Assembly (NCBI GenBank): GCA_947648875.1
Contig: CANSPM010000020.1
Location: forward strand, 1 to 59,431
Reading direction: 5' to 3'
Source of the DNA: an uncultured Lachnospiraceae bacterium
Lineage (GTDB): Bacteria > Bacillota > Clostridia > Lachnospirales > Lachnospiraceae
Length of the DNA: 59,431 bases
Shown here: one piece after another, positions 2,848 through 56,696 of the stretch
Numbering within the stretch: position 1 is the first letter of the stretch
Layout: every line of letters begins with the position of its first letter
The notes under the pieces: generated by a model
Told to the model about the DNA's origin: nothing
What the model saw: the letters and a program-made list of their open reading frames with translations, nothing else
Databases searched by the model: none
Program-made: the position numbers and the translations under genes

Positions 2848-3183
2848 TTATTCGTCTGTTTCATCTGACTGCGCATCACCGAACAAAATACGCATATAAT
2901 CGCGGCGGCCATACAAAACACGATCTATATAAACATCTTTTCCATAAGCCCTGTAGAACACAAGATAGTTTCCGCTTACGAGGAAACGGTAATCGCTTTC
3001 TGTGTCTGCGACCGAAGAAAGCATAGTACCTTCATAAGCCTGATTTTTCAGGATTCGGATTTTCTTTGTGATCCTGCTTATGGTTGCCAGAGCCGCGTCC
3101 GGATTTTCAAGTTCTTCTGTGATATAGGCTTTGATTTCAGCCAGGTCATTTTGCGCCTCTTTCGATAGGTGCAGGTTATTCAT
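2848..3183 (-). CDS. Type II toxin, RelE/ParE family
   Basis: A 111-residue protein with the RelE/ParE fold pattern: N-terminal LSKEAQNDLAEIKAYI helix, a central YRFLVSGNYLVFYRAYG strand pair and a C-terminal VYIDRVLYGRRDYMRILF strand. Members either cleave mRNA in the ribosome A site or poison gyrase; which applies here cannot be told. The gene follows its antitoxin with an 8-bp overlap, the usual translationally coupled order. The length is normal and no damage is visible, although it lies between decayed mobile elements. This suggests it arrived with an element and has been kept for its addictive effect. Confidence 0.9.
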   Translation of the reverse strand: MNNLHLSKEAQNDLAEIKAYITEELENPDAALATISRITKKIRILKNQAYEGTMLSSVADTESDYRFLVSGNYLVFYRAYGKDVYIDRVLYGRRDYMRILFGDAQSDETDE

Positions 3184-3430
3184 GGGAAAGCCCGAGGTTT
3201 TCCTCCACGGCCTCCAATGTCAGCCAGCCTTTCTCTTCCCCGGATTTCCGGCCTTTTTCAAGCTCGTTCATCAGCCGGATGGTTGCCCGTGTCTTTTCAT
3301 AGTCCTGTATGTCAATAATTGCATAGCGCCCCCGACCGTTTTTCGTCAGAAAAACGGGAGCGCCTACTGCTACATCATGCAGTACCTCGCTGTAATTGCG
3401 CAGATCGGAAATAGGTTTAATGTTTGGCAT
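3176..3430 (-). CDS. Antitoxin, Phd/YefM family
   Basis: An 84-residue protein starting MPNIKPISDLRNYSEVL, the Phd/YefM DNA-binding N-terminus; the C-terminal third (roughly WLTLEAVEENLGL) is the likely toxin-binding segment. A longer frame exists upstream, but AGGAGTGG sits 9 bases before the ATG at 3430, which fixes this start. In this family the antitoxin neutralises the toxin and represses its own operon. The promoter just upstream carries small inverted repeats consistent with autoregulation. Confidence 0.9.
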   Translation of the reverse strand: MPNIKPISDLRNYSEVLHDVAVGAPVFLTKNGRGRYAIIDIQDYEKTRATIRLMNELEKGRKSGEEKGWLTLEAVEENLGLSHE

Positions 3431-3454
3431 AGGGTTCCACTCCTTTCTGCCATT

Positions 3455-3483
3455 AGTATAACCCAATCTGCTGTAAAATTCAA
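3455..3483 (-). promoter_or_regulatory. Promoter of the toxin-antitoxin operon with candidate operator
   Basis: On the minus strand TTGAAT (3478-3483) and TATACT (3455-3460) are 17 bp apart, about 25 bp upstream of the antitoxin start. GCTGT and ACAGC arms flank the -35 box, forming a short inverted repeat that could be the antitoxin operator. Confidence 0.75.
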
Positions 3484-3544
3484 CAGCAAAATTTACAACA
3501 CCTAGCAAGTGAATTATAAGCCTTTCCCTCCATTGGCCAAAGCG

Positions 3545-53903: not shown

Positions 53904-54682
53904 AAGCTGCTTTCCTCCAATTAAGGTCTGATTTGGGTATTCTGCCAGAGACTGTTTTTGCACATTCTGACACCCATAAGGGTATTTTACTAAATATTCT
54001 GGAAGTTTACAAGTCTTTTTATTATTTTTGTACAAGTCTTCAAATTACTTTTCCGTCCGGAAAATCCAAACCACTGCCGTAAGGGGAAATCCCCACATCT
54101 GTCCTGTCCCGCACCCCGCCTCTGCCCCCGCCGCACACAATCAGCCAAAAAAACCACCGCCGCCGCAGTCCGCCAACTCAATCGGCCCGTTTTGCAATAA
54201 GTATATCGGCAAAGATAAAATTCCCGCAAGCCCGTAAGCCTTTTCATACAATTCCAAAATATCCTTGACAAAACCCTGCTCCGATGCTAAATTATAAAAA
54301 AATGTTGTTTTGGTTTCAGATTGGAGGACCCCATGTAATACGTATCCGACATATAAACAGATCAGAAGCACGGACACTGCCAGTAACCGGTTATAGTGTC
54401 TGCTTTTTTAGCGCATCTGTTTGATTGGATATCTTTGTAGCAGCATGGAACTTTTTGATCCGTTTGGGTTTTCCGCCCGGATTCCAAAACAGCCATAAGC
54501 GGCGTGAATGCCGCAAGACTGTCTTTTTTGGTATGCTGTGAAAGTTTTTCTTCACGGCATTTTTTGTTGCCGGAGAACTGGAAAAACGCGTTTGCGCTAA
54601 CAATATGTGGTATGGCGCAGGTTTAATACTACCTGTTGCCACCCTAATGCCAATATCAGAAAATAAGAAAGGATGATACTAT
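53904..54682. other. Gene-poor region with possible membrane-protein remnant
   Basis: About 780 bp between the divergent EF-G-like and RNA ligase genes. It contains the doubtful frame at 54141-54377 and, at 54391-54642 minus, a Lys/Arg-rich open frame without a ribosome site. A GCCGTGAA/TTCACGGC-type inverted repeat occurs near 54550. The right end must hold the RNA ligase promoter, but no good -35/-10 pair was found. Confidence 0.5.
54141..54377 (-). CDS. Doubtful 78-residue membrane-protein-like frame
   Basis: GTG-initiated frame with one hydrophobic segment (MSVLLICLYVGYVLHGVL), a plausible soluble stretch (ASEQGFVKDILELYEKAYGL) and a Gly-rich end. There is no ribosome site, and the open frame extends upstream of the GTG without an ATG. 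It may be a decayed gene's 3' part. Confidence 0.25.
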   Translation of the reverse strand: MSVLLICLYVGYVLHGVLQSETKTTFFYNLASEQGFVKDILELYEKAYGLAGILSLPIYLLQNGPIELADCGGGGFFG

Positions 54683-55483
54683 ATGGATCAGATTTATAAA
54701 TATCCCCGCACCCGCCATCTGGAAGGTTCCAGAAAGCAGTCCGGGGACGAAGATTTAAAAAATATCTCTTTCAGCGAAATCCAGGGCAAATTCCTGGTCC
54801 TGGAAGAAAAAGTGGATGGGGCCAACTGTGGCATCAGCTTCGACAGCAACGGAAAAATGTACCTGCAAAGCCGGGGGCACTTCTTAAACGGGGGGTACGG
54901 CGAAAAGCAGTTCGACCTGTTCAAACTGTGGGCCGGTTGCTTTGAAGAGAGGCTGCGCCGCCTTCTGGGGGACAGATATGTGATGTACGGCGAATGGCTC
55001 TATGCCAAGCACACGGTATTTTATGACTGCCTGCCCCATTACTTTATGGAGTTTGATATCTTTGACAAAGAGGAGAAAATGTTCTTTTCCACCGGAAAGC
55101 GCAGGAAATTCTTACAGGATGCTCCCTATGTACACTCCGTCCGGGTTTTGGAGGAGGGATATTACACCGGTCCGGAAGCCATTGCGGCGCTGATCGGCCC
55201 CAGTCTCTTCATCTCCGAAGACGCGGAAAAACACTTTTTCTCGCAGTGTAAAAAAGGCGGCGTACACCCGGAGACAGCCCTCCGGCAGACGGATCTTTCC
55301 GGAGTTATGGAAGGTGTCTATATCAAGGTGGAGGATGGGGATTATGTCACGGACCGTATGAAGTTCGTCCGCGCTTCCTTCCTGAATACCATTCTGGATT
55401 CGGAAAGTCACTGGGCCAGCCGCCCCATCGTGGCAAACTGTCTGGCAGACGGGACGGACCTGTTCTCCCCCGACGGATCATAG
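54683..55483 (+). CDS. RNA ligase, nucleotidyltransferase superfamily (Rnl-like)
   Basis: A 266-residue ATP-dependent ligase that would seal 3'-OH and 5'-phosphate RNA ends. The adenylation motif I is EEKVDGANCGI with nucleophile Lys 43; a motif III-like MYGEWLY (101-107) and EFDIFD (123-128), motif IV EGVYIK (210-215) and motif V MKFVR (226-230) are in the right order and spacing. The protein is close to the minimal catalytic core, with no long C-terminal domain. ATG follows GAAAGGATG. It is followed 46 bp later by the HD-kinase fusion, so the two probably form one RNA-repair operon. Confidence 0.9.
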   Translation: MDQIYKYPRTRHLEGSRKQSGDEDLKNISFSEIQGKFLVLEEKVDGANCGISFDSNGKMYLQSRGHFLNGGYGEKQFDLFKLWAGCFEERLRRLLGDRYVMYGEWLYAKHTVFYDCLPHYFMEFDIFDKEEKMFFSTGKRRKFLQDAPYVHSVRVLEEGYYTGPEAIAALIGPSLFISEDAEKHFFSQCKKGGVHPETALRQTDLSGVMEGVYIKVEDGDYVTDRMKFVRASFLNTILDSESHWASRPIVANCLADGTDLFSPDGS

Positions 55484-55529
55484 GTCAGCTACTATAGGAT
55501 GTTGCGCTATAAGACAGGGAGATGAGAAA

Positions 55530-56696
55530 ATGGAAAAAAATATTTTAGACAAAATAAGGGAAACCGGATTTTCGCTGCAAGAACTTGCCTCCGCCTGCCC
55601 GGAGCTGCTGTCCTTGCAGGACGTGCCGCAGAATCCGGAACACCATGGGGAGGGCGATGTGTTTCGACACACGGAGATGGTGTGCGAAGAGCTGAAAGAG
55701 CTTCCCCTTTGGCAGCAATTGCCGGTGGAGGAAAGAGCGCTGCTGTTTCTGGCGGCGGCATTCCACGACATCGGAAAGCCCGCCTGCACCAGGCTGGAGG
55801 ATGGAAAATGGGTATCGCCCAGACACACCATTGTGGGAGAAAAAATATTCCGCAGAATTGCCTATCAGGAGAGCGGGCGTTTGGGGCTGTCCTTCGGCCA
55901 GCGGGAACTTGTGGCAAAGCTGATTCGTTTCCACGGCCTGCCTCTGTGGTTCTGGACCAAAGAGCAGCCCGATACGGAACTGTGCAAGGCCGCCGAGAGC
56001 ATCCCACTTAAGTTTTTGTATCTGCTGTCCCGGGCAGATACCCTGGGACGCCAGGAAAACCTGCCCGGGCAGCTATCCGATCAGGTGGAGCTGTTCGGAG
56101 AATATGTCCGGGAACTTGGCATTTGGGAGCACCCATACCCCTTCGGGAATCCTTATACAAAATTCCGTTTCTATCAGAAGGCGGAACTGTGGCAGGGTGC
56201 CTGTCTGTATGACGACACCACCTTCGACGTAATCATAATGGCCGGACTTCCCCTGTCCGGCAAGGACACCTGGATCACCCAAAAGAGCGGCGAATGGTCT
56301 GACATGCCCATAGTCTCTCTGGATGATCTCCGGGAAAAAATGGGGATTCCGCCCTCCAAACCCTCCGGCAGGGTCGTCCAGGAAGCGCTGGAACTGGCCC
56401 GGGGATATCTGCGAAAGGGCCGGCCTTTTATCTGGAACGCCACCAATCTTCTAATGGAAACCCGGCAAAAACTGGTAAAGCTGTTTGCAGGTTATGGGGC
56501 CAGAGTGCATATCCTGTATCTGGAAGTCCCTTACCAGGAACTGCTGCGCCGCAACCGCGTCAGAGCAAGGCACATTCCCGAGCCCGTTCTGGATGACATG
56601 ATCCGAAAGCTGGAAGTTCCGGCGCCATGGGAGGCTTACAGTGTAACACCGCTCTCCGGGCTTGCTTTTCACACTTTACCGTGCTATAGTCTATAG
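55530..56696 (+). CDS. HD phosphohydrolase-polynucleotide kinase fusion (HD-Pnk-like)
   Basis: A 388-residue two-domain end-healing enzyme. The N-terminal HD domain (about 30-200) has FRHTEMV (His 47), AAFHDIGKP (His 79-Asp 80), SPRHT (His 99) and LLSRADTLG (Asp 170). Its expected job is removal of 2',3'-cyclic or 3'-phosphate. The C-terminal kinase (about 232-388) has the Walker A loop GLPLSGKDT (239-247), SLDDLREK with likely catalytic Asp 265/266, and an Arg-rich lid (RRNRVRAR). It would phosphorylate 5'-OH ends. This architecture matches HD-Pnk described from Runella. GGGAGATGAG precedes the ATG. It is coupled to the RNA ligase gene upstream. Confidence 0.88.
   Translation: MEKNILDKIRETGFSLQELASACPELLSLQDVPQNPEHHGEGDVFRHTEMVCEELKELPLWQQLPVEERALLFLAAAFHDIGKPACTRLEDGKWVSPRHTIVGEKIFRRIAYQESGRLGLSFGQRELVAKLIRFHGLPLWFWTKEQPDTELCKAAESIPLKFLYLLSRADTLGRQENLPGQLSDQVELFGEYVRELGIWEHPYPFGNPYTKFRFYQKAELWQGACLYDDTTFDVIIMAGLPLSGKDTWITQKSGEWSDMPIVSLDDLREKMGIPPSKPSGRVVQEALELARGYLRKGRPFIWNATNLLMETRQKLVKLFAGYGARVHILYLEVPYQELLRRNRVRARHIPEPVLDDMIRKLEVPAPWEAYSVTPLSGLAFHTLPCYSL

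Follow-up and report, generated by a model that had tools for sequence, protein, structure and literature searches.

Which damage does a bacterial RNA-repair gene pair answer, and how would the cell know when to make it? The question is raised by a locus of an uncultured Lachnospiraceae bacterium (assembly GCA_947648875.1), which was analysed in a stretch of 59,431 nucleotides (contig CANSPM010000020.1, positions 1 to 59,431 of the forward strand; the window hereafter). Here the gene of a predicted ATP-dependent RNA ligase is followed by the gene of HD-Pnk, a protein that joins an HD phosphohydrolase to a polynucleotide kinase. Ahead of the pair lies a leader with a one-codon open reading frame (ORF), ATG-TAA. 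On the strength of sequence comparison and RNA folding in silico we lean, on balance, towards the view that this leader is a ribosome-gated attenuator, which would switch on the repair genes once ribosomes initiate without being able to terminate. Should the leader behave in this way, the cassette has a damage sensor of its own, and the question of the damage answered becomes one for a reporter experiment.

The two genes of the cassette are the following.

54683 to 55483, plus strand: ATP-dependent RNA ligase, 266 amino acids (profile match, catalytic residues, predicted fold).
55530 to 56696, plus strand: HD-Pnk, N-terminal HD phosphohydrolase and C-terminal P-loop polynucleotide kinase, 388 amino acids (Pfam, predicted fold, residues).

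Both ORFs and their spacing of 46 base pairs (bp) were confirmed, and the original prediction, an RNA ligase gene followed 46 bp on by an HD-Pnk fusion gene, was borne out by the domain scans, the predicted folds and the catalytic residues. In the Pfam scan the ligase matched RNA_ligase, PF09414 (2.3e-33, 116.2 bits against a curated cut-off of 27), hence the profiles did not place it outside the RNA ligases; this was the single PF09414 match in the source genome, while NCBIfam held no model matching the ligase. Residues K43, D45, G46, R64, E104 and K227 of the ligase were invariant in an alignment of 25 sequences, and E210-G211 in a closer set of 24; we take these to represent motifs I (KxDG), Ia, III, IV and V. 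In HD-Pnk, where the Pfam scan and the predicted fold both placed an HD domain and then a P-loop kinase domain within one protein, H47, H79, D80, H135, D170, G239, G244, K245, D265 and R268 were invariant in an alignment of 23. These are presumably the metal-site residues of the HD domain and the GxxxxGK, D and R residues of the kinase, the motif of which reads GKD where GK[ST] is usual. The predicted structures of both proteins agreed with an RNA ligase and an HD-Pnk. Since the ligase model aligned only with residues 0-234 of T4 Rnl2, the ligase was not assigned to Rnl2 proper.

The original prediction would also have failed had the pair not been conserved in relatives; of the 65 named genome loci retrieved through HD-Pnk, however, 60 had the ligase gene directly upstream on the same strand. 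In the five exceptions the contig ended (L029), the ligase gene was inverted and 2 kb off (L036), the order was swapped (L072) or no ligase was found (L065 and L080, the latter matching the HD part of HD-Pnk only). Taken together, the domains, predicted folds, catalytic residues and conserved linkage support a two-gene RNA healing-and-sealing cassette. HD-Pnk would convert 2',3'-cyclic-phosphate or 3'-phosphate and 5'-OH ends to 3'-OH and 5'-phosphate ends, and the ligase would then seal the healed ends using ATP. That the pair repairs DNA ends instead of RNA seems rather improbable to us: the Runella HD-Pnk reportedly acts on DNA ends too and the fold family of the ligase includes DNA ligases, while in the structure comparison the predicted ligase fold was nearer to RNA ligases than to DNA ligases. 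An HD-Pnk and ligase enzyme pair is said to have been described for Runella slithyformis and relatives, thus the enzyme pair appears to be of a known kind; the claim that such a system is little described does not stand for the enzymes and may hold for the leader.

The elements of the leader are, in order:

54265 to 54293, plus strand: predicted sigma-70 promoter TTGACA-17-TAAATT with an extended -10 (10 of 12 matches).
54323 to 54338, plus strand: Shine-Dalgarno sequence (SD) GGAGG at 54323-54327 and start-stop ORF ATG-TAA at 54333-54338 (sequence, motif survey).
54341 to 54362, plus strand: 5' strand of helix P1, just past ATGTAAT (pairing and covariation tests).
54372 to 54402, plus strand: apical hairpin P3, with a T run behind it at 54404-54409 (alignment, sequence).
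54414 to 54433, plus strand: 3' strand of P1 (pairing test).
54439 to 54448, plus strand: predicted switch strand AGCAGCATGG, pairing with the start-stop AUG (helix P0) or with the 5' arm of terminator T2 (antiterminator) (pairing tests).
54533 to 54560, plus strand: hairpin of the predicted intrinsic terminator T2, followed by TTTTT (terminator prediction).

Between the end of the predicted promoter and the ligase start lie 390 bp, and the predicted transcript begins at GGAGG, with ATG-TAA five bases later. A similar TTGACA...TAGATT was present at the corresponding place of L149, and 54264-54568 was 77% identical to the genome G370. In the proposed OFF state no ribosome sits on the start-stop ORF, so that P0 and P1 would form, the switch strand would be held, T2 would form and transcription would end. 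With a ribosome dwelling on AUG-UAA, P0 and P1 would have their 5' strands covered; the switch strand, now free, would pair with the 5' arm of T2, and transcription would read through. The start-stop ORF lacks any codon for elongation, so all that the leader could report is initiation with a failure to release after it. The likeliest inducer would be damage under which initiation still works while the A site or release is blocked, for instance when 16S rRNA is cut at the decoding centre. Cleavage there leaves ends of the kind that HD-Pnk heals. With no elongator tRNA required, the ORF would distinguish damage to ribosomes from damage to tRNA, and, if all this is true, the cell makes RNA-mending enzymes when its ribosomes break at the decoding step.

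The start-stop motif was surveyed in 65 distinct sequences upstream of ligase genes, up to 700 bp each and one of only 144, the rule being an SD-like tetramer 3-11 bases ahead of ATGTAA. It was found in 31 of them, as compared to a mean of 2.03 and a maximum of 7 in 100 rounds of dinucleotide shuffling. Under the same SD rule other hexamers were rare (ATGTAG 0, ATGTGA 2, ATGTCA 1, ATGTAC 2, ATGTAT 4, ATGAAA 5, GTGTAA 1, TTGTAA 1). The SD itself varied (GGAGG, GGGTGA, GAGGAAG); the search required an SD-like tetramer and not these particular forms. The invariance of the motif in the 17 aligned leaders is no independent evidence, since they had been picked by it; the CCC ahead of the motif was also invariant there. 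A P1-type helix followed the motif in 28 of the 31 leaders and in four leaders with AAG in place of ATG, giving a set of 32, whereas L031, L062 and L075 carried the motif without P1 and were dropped from all helix tests. The start-stop leader was found in Lachnospiraceae, in Hungatella and in three named Clostridium species, and the motif was also present in a genome of another Clostridia family (L169). In one of the leaders without P1, that of Hazenella coriacea (L062), SD-ATG-TAA lies 71 bp before the ligase gene, and by eye the start codon seems to be part of the 5' arm of a hairpin with a T run behind it, which may be a third architecture.

P1 begins right behind the stop codon, and CCCCAUG, which holds the start codon, would pair with CAUGGGG just past P1 to form P0. 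In order to compare true with permuted partners, each 5' strand was paired with its own 3' strand or with that of another leader. The mean energy of P0 was -9.4 kcal/mol with own and -8.4 kcal/mol with permuted partners, 2 of 5000 permutations being as good (28 leaders). For P1 the values were -13.2 and -7.1 kcal/mol with 0 of 5000 (32 leaders); here the 3' strands had been picked as the best complement of their own 5' strand or by hand, thus the P1 permutation is partly circular and lends the attenuator correspondingly less support. Hand placement of P1 3' strands concerned 12, 10 and 17 leaders across three analyses, and L034 was placed differently in the antiterminator test and in the P0/P1 test. 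RNAalifold on a MAFFT alignment returned five pairs only. The structure tested for covariation was drawn by hand and then counted, which favours the drawn structure: among the 17 aligned leaders it scored 0.219 for covariation where shuffles gave 0.150 (0 of 500), with two-sided changes in 21 cells as compared to 9.5 (0 of 500). Rfam 15 gave no covariance-model match for the leader of the window or for the leaders of 13 loci. In most of the aligned leaders a T-rich run stood behind the P3 hairpin, as at 54372-54409 of the window, and the hairpin could itself be a weak terminator.

A terminator-like T2 hairpin was called in 24 of the 32 leaders, with a 5' arm near AUGCUGUG in most, and the 3' strand of P0 (ACAGCAUGG in many leaders) is complementary to this arm. 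The antiterminator test left out eight leaders lacking a called T2 (L021, L022, L023, L026, L052, L056, L059 and L067); L044, where the terminator call was poor, was left out of the T2 tests, and for L019 and L020 the automatic choice of terminator was replaced by the conserved one. In the remaining 23 leaders the antiterminator had a mean energy of -10.9 kcal/mol with own and -9.3 kcal/mol with permuted partners (3 of 5000), and the arms fitted each other better than shuffled ones at p <= 0.05 in 13. In L038 the switch strand and the T2 arm changed together, and L019 had a matched change. When the start-stop was covered in silico, the mean pairing of T2 in the 23 leaders fell from 0.90 to 0.56. 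As the cover was slid along the leader, the mean drop was largest, 0.35, for starts 15 or 5 bases ahead of the AUG, lower for a start 25 bases ahead (0.24) or 5 and 15 bases past it (0.14 and 0.11, respectively), and about 0 for starts 35-55 bases past it. Thus, as predicted in silico, a mutually exclusive anti-antiterminator, antiterminator and terminator are present on average in the relatives. Another candidate, a T2 loop that mimics the 5' strand of P1, was put aside, as by eye it explained fewer leaders than the pairing between the 3' strand of P0 and the 5' arm of T2.

Six leaders without a called T2 end at the ligase gene, and in these short leaders the same ribosome would free translation of the ligase instead. 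In the predicted folds the start-stop was paired with the start codon of the ligase, which was unpaired to 0.00-0.02 in five of them and to 0.22 in L067. Under cover the start codon opened to 0.39-0.93 in 5 of the 6, while it closed further in L067, from 0.22 to 0.10. The SD of the ligase became less accessible in 5 of the 6 (in L021 from 0.78 to 0.01) and rose in L067 alone, from 0.32 to 0.45. Since the start codon opens in five leaders but the SD closes in five, the translation form of the switch is half supported only by these models, and the closing of the SD speaks against a simple translation switch.

The behaviour of the SD and of L067 in the short leaders is part of a body of evidence that weighs against the attenuator. 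At the level of the motif, 30 of the 65 upstream sequences lack it, and four otherwise similar leaders (L044, L046, L049 and L052) read AAGTAA in place of ATGTAA with SD and P1 kept; these cannot initiate there by any usual codon. At the level of the helices, the number of pairs with two-sided changes was not raised (6 against 4.8 in shuffles, 133 of 500), P0 showed no two-sided changes in the 17-leader alignment, and the leaders were found through the motif and are related, thus the permutation and shuffle statistics are no strict probabilities. The antiterminator arms were not better than shuffled ones at p 0.05 in 10 of the 23 leaders, with p 0.38 or worse in L008, L009, L033, L034 and L058, and L020, which is near L019, has one of the two matched changes only. 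The T2 pairing dropped by more than 0.1 under cover in only 13 of the 23 long leaders, and L007 moved the opposite way. The leader of the window itself does have the P0, P1 and antiterminator pairing elements, but its T2 pairing was 0.92 both without and with the start-stop covered, and 0.91 at best under any cover position.

Several of these points are what one would expect if the pair were constitutive or regulated at its promoter, the leader being merely a structured 5' untranslated region in which AUG-UAA is not translated. The AAG leaders that still keep SD and P1, the upstream sequences without the motif, the lack of an equilibrium switch in the leader of the window and the hiding of the ligase SD in short leaders all fit this explanation. 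It accounts less well for an SD that varies in form ahead of AUG-UAA, for a motif far above shuffles and other hexamers, and for antiterminator arms that on average fit their own partner better than permuted ones. We therefore regard an untranslated leader as unlikely, though by no means negligible. The same structures would also permit the leader to sense the supply of initiating ribosomes, healthy initiation meaning ON and loss of initiation OFF, as a strong SD could keep the site occupied. However, the start codon is predicted to be paired in P0, a ribosome that leaves fast would let P1 fold, and a repair cassette that shuts off under damage would be hard to explain; this alternative seems improbable.

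The specificity of the leader bears on one more explanation. When 298 genomes of the family were searched with a covariance model of the leader (R1), strong matches were obtained in 4 (E 1.1e-18 or better), all of them before the cassette, while 11 of the 298 matched at E 0.01 under stricter filters. The idea of a general element was rejected: the matches in the seven further genomes were weak, and the four inspected (L160, L161, L162 and L166; L163-L165 were not inspected) had no start-stop at the match and look like chance hairpins. R1 misses 8 of the 32 leaders (L009, L010, L044, L052, L055, L056, L058 and L074), so diverged copies at other places would escape it as well, and the spread is a lower bound. 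The leader could also be an autoregulatory site for the ligase, HD-Pnk or another protein, without any role of the ribosome. The strong matches found solely before the cassette and the P1 helix retained by the AAG variants are consistent with such a site; an SD preserved with altered letters and the predicted helix that joins the start-stop to the ligase start codon in 5 of the 6 short leaders argue against it, and we assign it little probability. The ribosome-gated attenuator thus stays the reading we favour. The wider proposal is that start-stop attenuators form a new class of bacterial riboregulators, in which SD-AUG-UAA reports initiation without termination and controls a mobile RNA-repair cassette through a transcription or a translation switch; it is tentative, being in our judgement slightly more apt to fail than to hold.

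The mobility of the cassette was inferred from its spread and from its insertion site, for which two further features are needed.

54035 to 56660, strand not assigned: stretch missing at the empty site of the genome G360, locus L148 (comparison with L148).
56661 to 56695, plus strand: segment sharing 94% identity with the stretch ahead of tyrA in L148, which in the window encodes the C-terminal end of HD-Pnk (comparison with L148).

In the window the cassette has an EF-G-like gene on one side and tyrA on the other. The close relative G360 (identities of 96% for EF-G, 94% for LeuRS and 86% for TyrA) lacks the cassette and has the two flanking genes next to each other; positions 54034 and 56661 of the window map to places 31 bp apart there. 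The homology with the empty site picks up again inside the last codons of HD-Pnk, and 56661-56695 is likely the ancestral tyrA promoter, through which the last residues of HD-Pnk would now be read. Residues 381-388 of HD-Pnk were disordered in the predicted model, with a predicted local distance difference test score (pLDDT) below 50. The cassette was also absent from four stretches of the same genus in which the EF-G-like gene and tyrA adjoin (L151, L152, L153 and L155), while L154 has other DNA between them; the stretch of L150 does not include EF-G. In G370 (TyrA 87%) the cassette stands beside tyrA, on a contig that does not reach the EF-G side. The empty site of G360 is most simply read as the state before an insertion; a loss of the cassette from G360 is conceivable as well.

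The distribution was patchy. A strong ligase match was obtained in 11 of the 298 family genomes (12 at E 1e-3), and HD-Pnk adjoined it in all 11. There were 13 carriers of HD-Pnk (E < 1e-60, one of them partial), of which G101 and G328 were without the ligase; at 6922-8094 of L115 (G101) a full HD-Pnk gene was seen with no ligase found beside it. At the level of the class 4 of 393 genomes had a strong ligase match and 6 of 393 any match at 1e-10, and the cassette was present in 1 of 36 other genomes of the same genus compared. Among metagenome proteins, at least 7677 relatives of the ligase and at least 680 of HD-Pnk were counted (E 0.001; about 8000 candidates scored for each). Since the cassette is patchy (11 of 298) and the same site is empty in a close relative, it is likely mobile. 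Distant ligase and HD-Pnk genes lie side by side in plasmid records, and movement on plasmids is possible. A phage origin was considered and rejected, as no relative of HD-Pnk was confirmed in the viral_contigs scan; annotated phages held 9 distant matches of the ligase, the best-ranked with 29.5% identity, and one near-full-length relative of HD-Pnk (36%). Two exact matches of the leader pattern in viral_contigs both lay inside unrelated coding sequence; this pattern fits one leader subtype only and is not matched by the leader of the window. The cassette was not assigned to a defence system either, as no PADLOC family fitted and there was a weak Cas3 HD match only.

Two kinds of neighbouring genes recurred in relatives. 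A gene for an S-adenosylmethionine-dependent methyltransferase lay directly upstream of the ligase gene in 9 of 78 loci checked and in none of the 32 leaders. The loci with this arrangement, from Clostridia and Acidobacteria, are L013, L014, L063, L064, L066, L070, L071, L073 and L170; L170 is outside the 78-locus set and its methyltransferase was seen by eye. By analogy, the methyltransferase may mark the repaired ends as Hen1 does. In nine loci (L035, L036, L037, L039, L041, L042, L043, L045 and L047) an HtpG-like gene, named by eye, precedes HD-Pnk on the same strand, with 0.9-3.2 kb between its end and HD-Pnk, which probably reflects shared descent.

As to the damage answered, the original prediction had tentatively pointed to the RelE-type gene at 2848 of the window; no evidence for such a link was found, and the gene has an antitoxin-like partner at 3176-3508. 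On the minus strand, at 2848-3508, the RelE/ParE-like toxin gene overlaps the antitoxin-like gene upstream of it (names by eye). The genome has further loci of RNA-repair type. On contig C5 (L113, 4526-6278) an rtcB gene stands beside a PrfH-like gene with an RF-1 domain, a module of the RtcB2-PrfH type. On contig C16 (L114, 3569-9998) there is a second rtcB and, past three ORFs, a gene for a microbial-type PARG, later followed by a gene for a Tpt1/KptA RNA 2'-phosphotransferase. Thus three separate RNA-repair-like loci, the cassette of the window included, coexist in the genome. The leader, the empty site and these two further loci are additions to the original prediction.

Among known systems, the HD-Pnk of Runella slithyformis is likened to that of the window by domain order: it is said to have an HD domain and then a P-loop kinase as well, with a ligase gene often adjacent, and we know of no such leader there. 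Relative to Rnl2 and Naegleria Rnl, the ligase of the window appears to consist of the catalytic domain only, the alignments starting at residue 136 of Naegleria Rnl and ending near residue 234 of T4 Rnl2. According to a source on jumbo phages, ATP-dependent RNA ligases work with kinases and phosphoesterases, which are HD-like in a few phages (PMC7824862). RtcB2-PrfH is reported to be a sporadic repair module that protects against cleavage of 16S rRNA at the decoding centre in E. coli; its ligase RtcB is unrelated, and it has a release-factor homologue where the cassette of the window has the start-stop leader (PMC9223846).

Among the matches listed in the literature searched, which covers few subscription journals, there was no bacterial start-stop attenuator and no paper on HD-Pnk. 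If the proposal is true, the leader is, as far as we know, a bacterial equivalent of the AUG-stop ORF known from a plant. In the extract on Arabidopsis NIP5;1 ribosomes stall on such a minimal ORF and control the gene; the system is eukaryotic, and the same extract gives no terminator switch (PMC5972666). In its mechanism the leader of the window, as proposed, resembles the ribosome-mediated attenuation of B. subtilis vmlR: in that system, a ribosome stalled on an upstream ORF blocks the anti-antiterminator, the antiterminator forms and the intrinsic terminator is bypassed, and vmlR is also induced by translation defects (PMC9226507). The two differ in that the upstream ORF of the window is a start codon and a stop, and in that the genes controlled would be those of RNA-repair enzymes instead of an ABCF factor.

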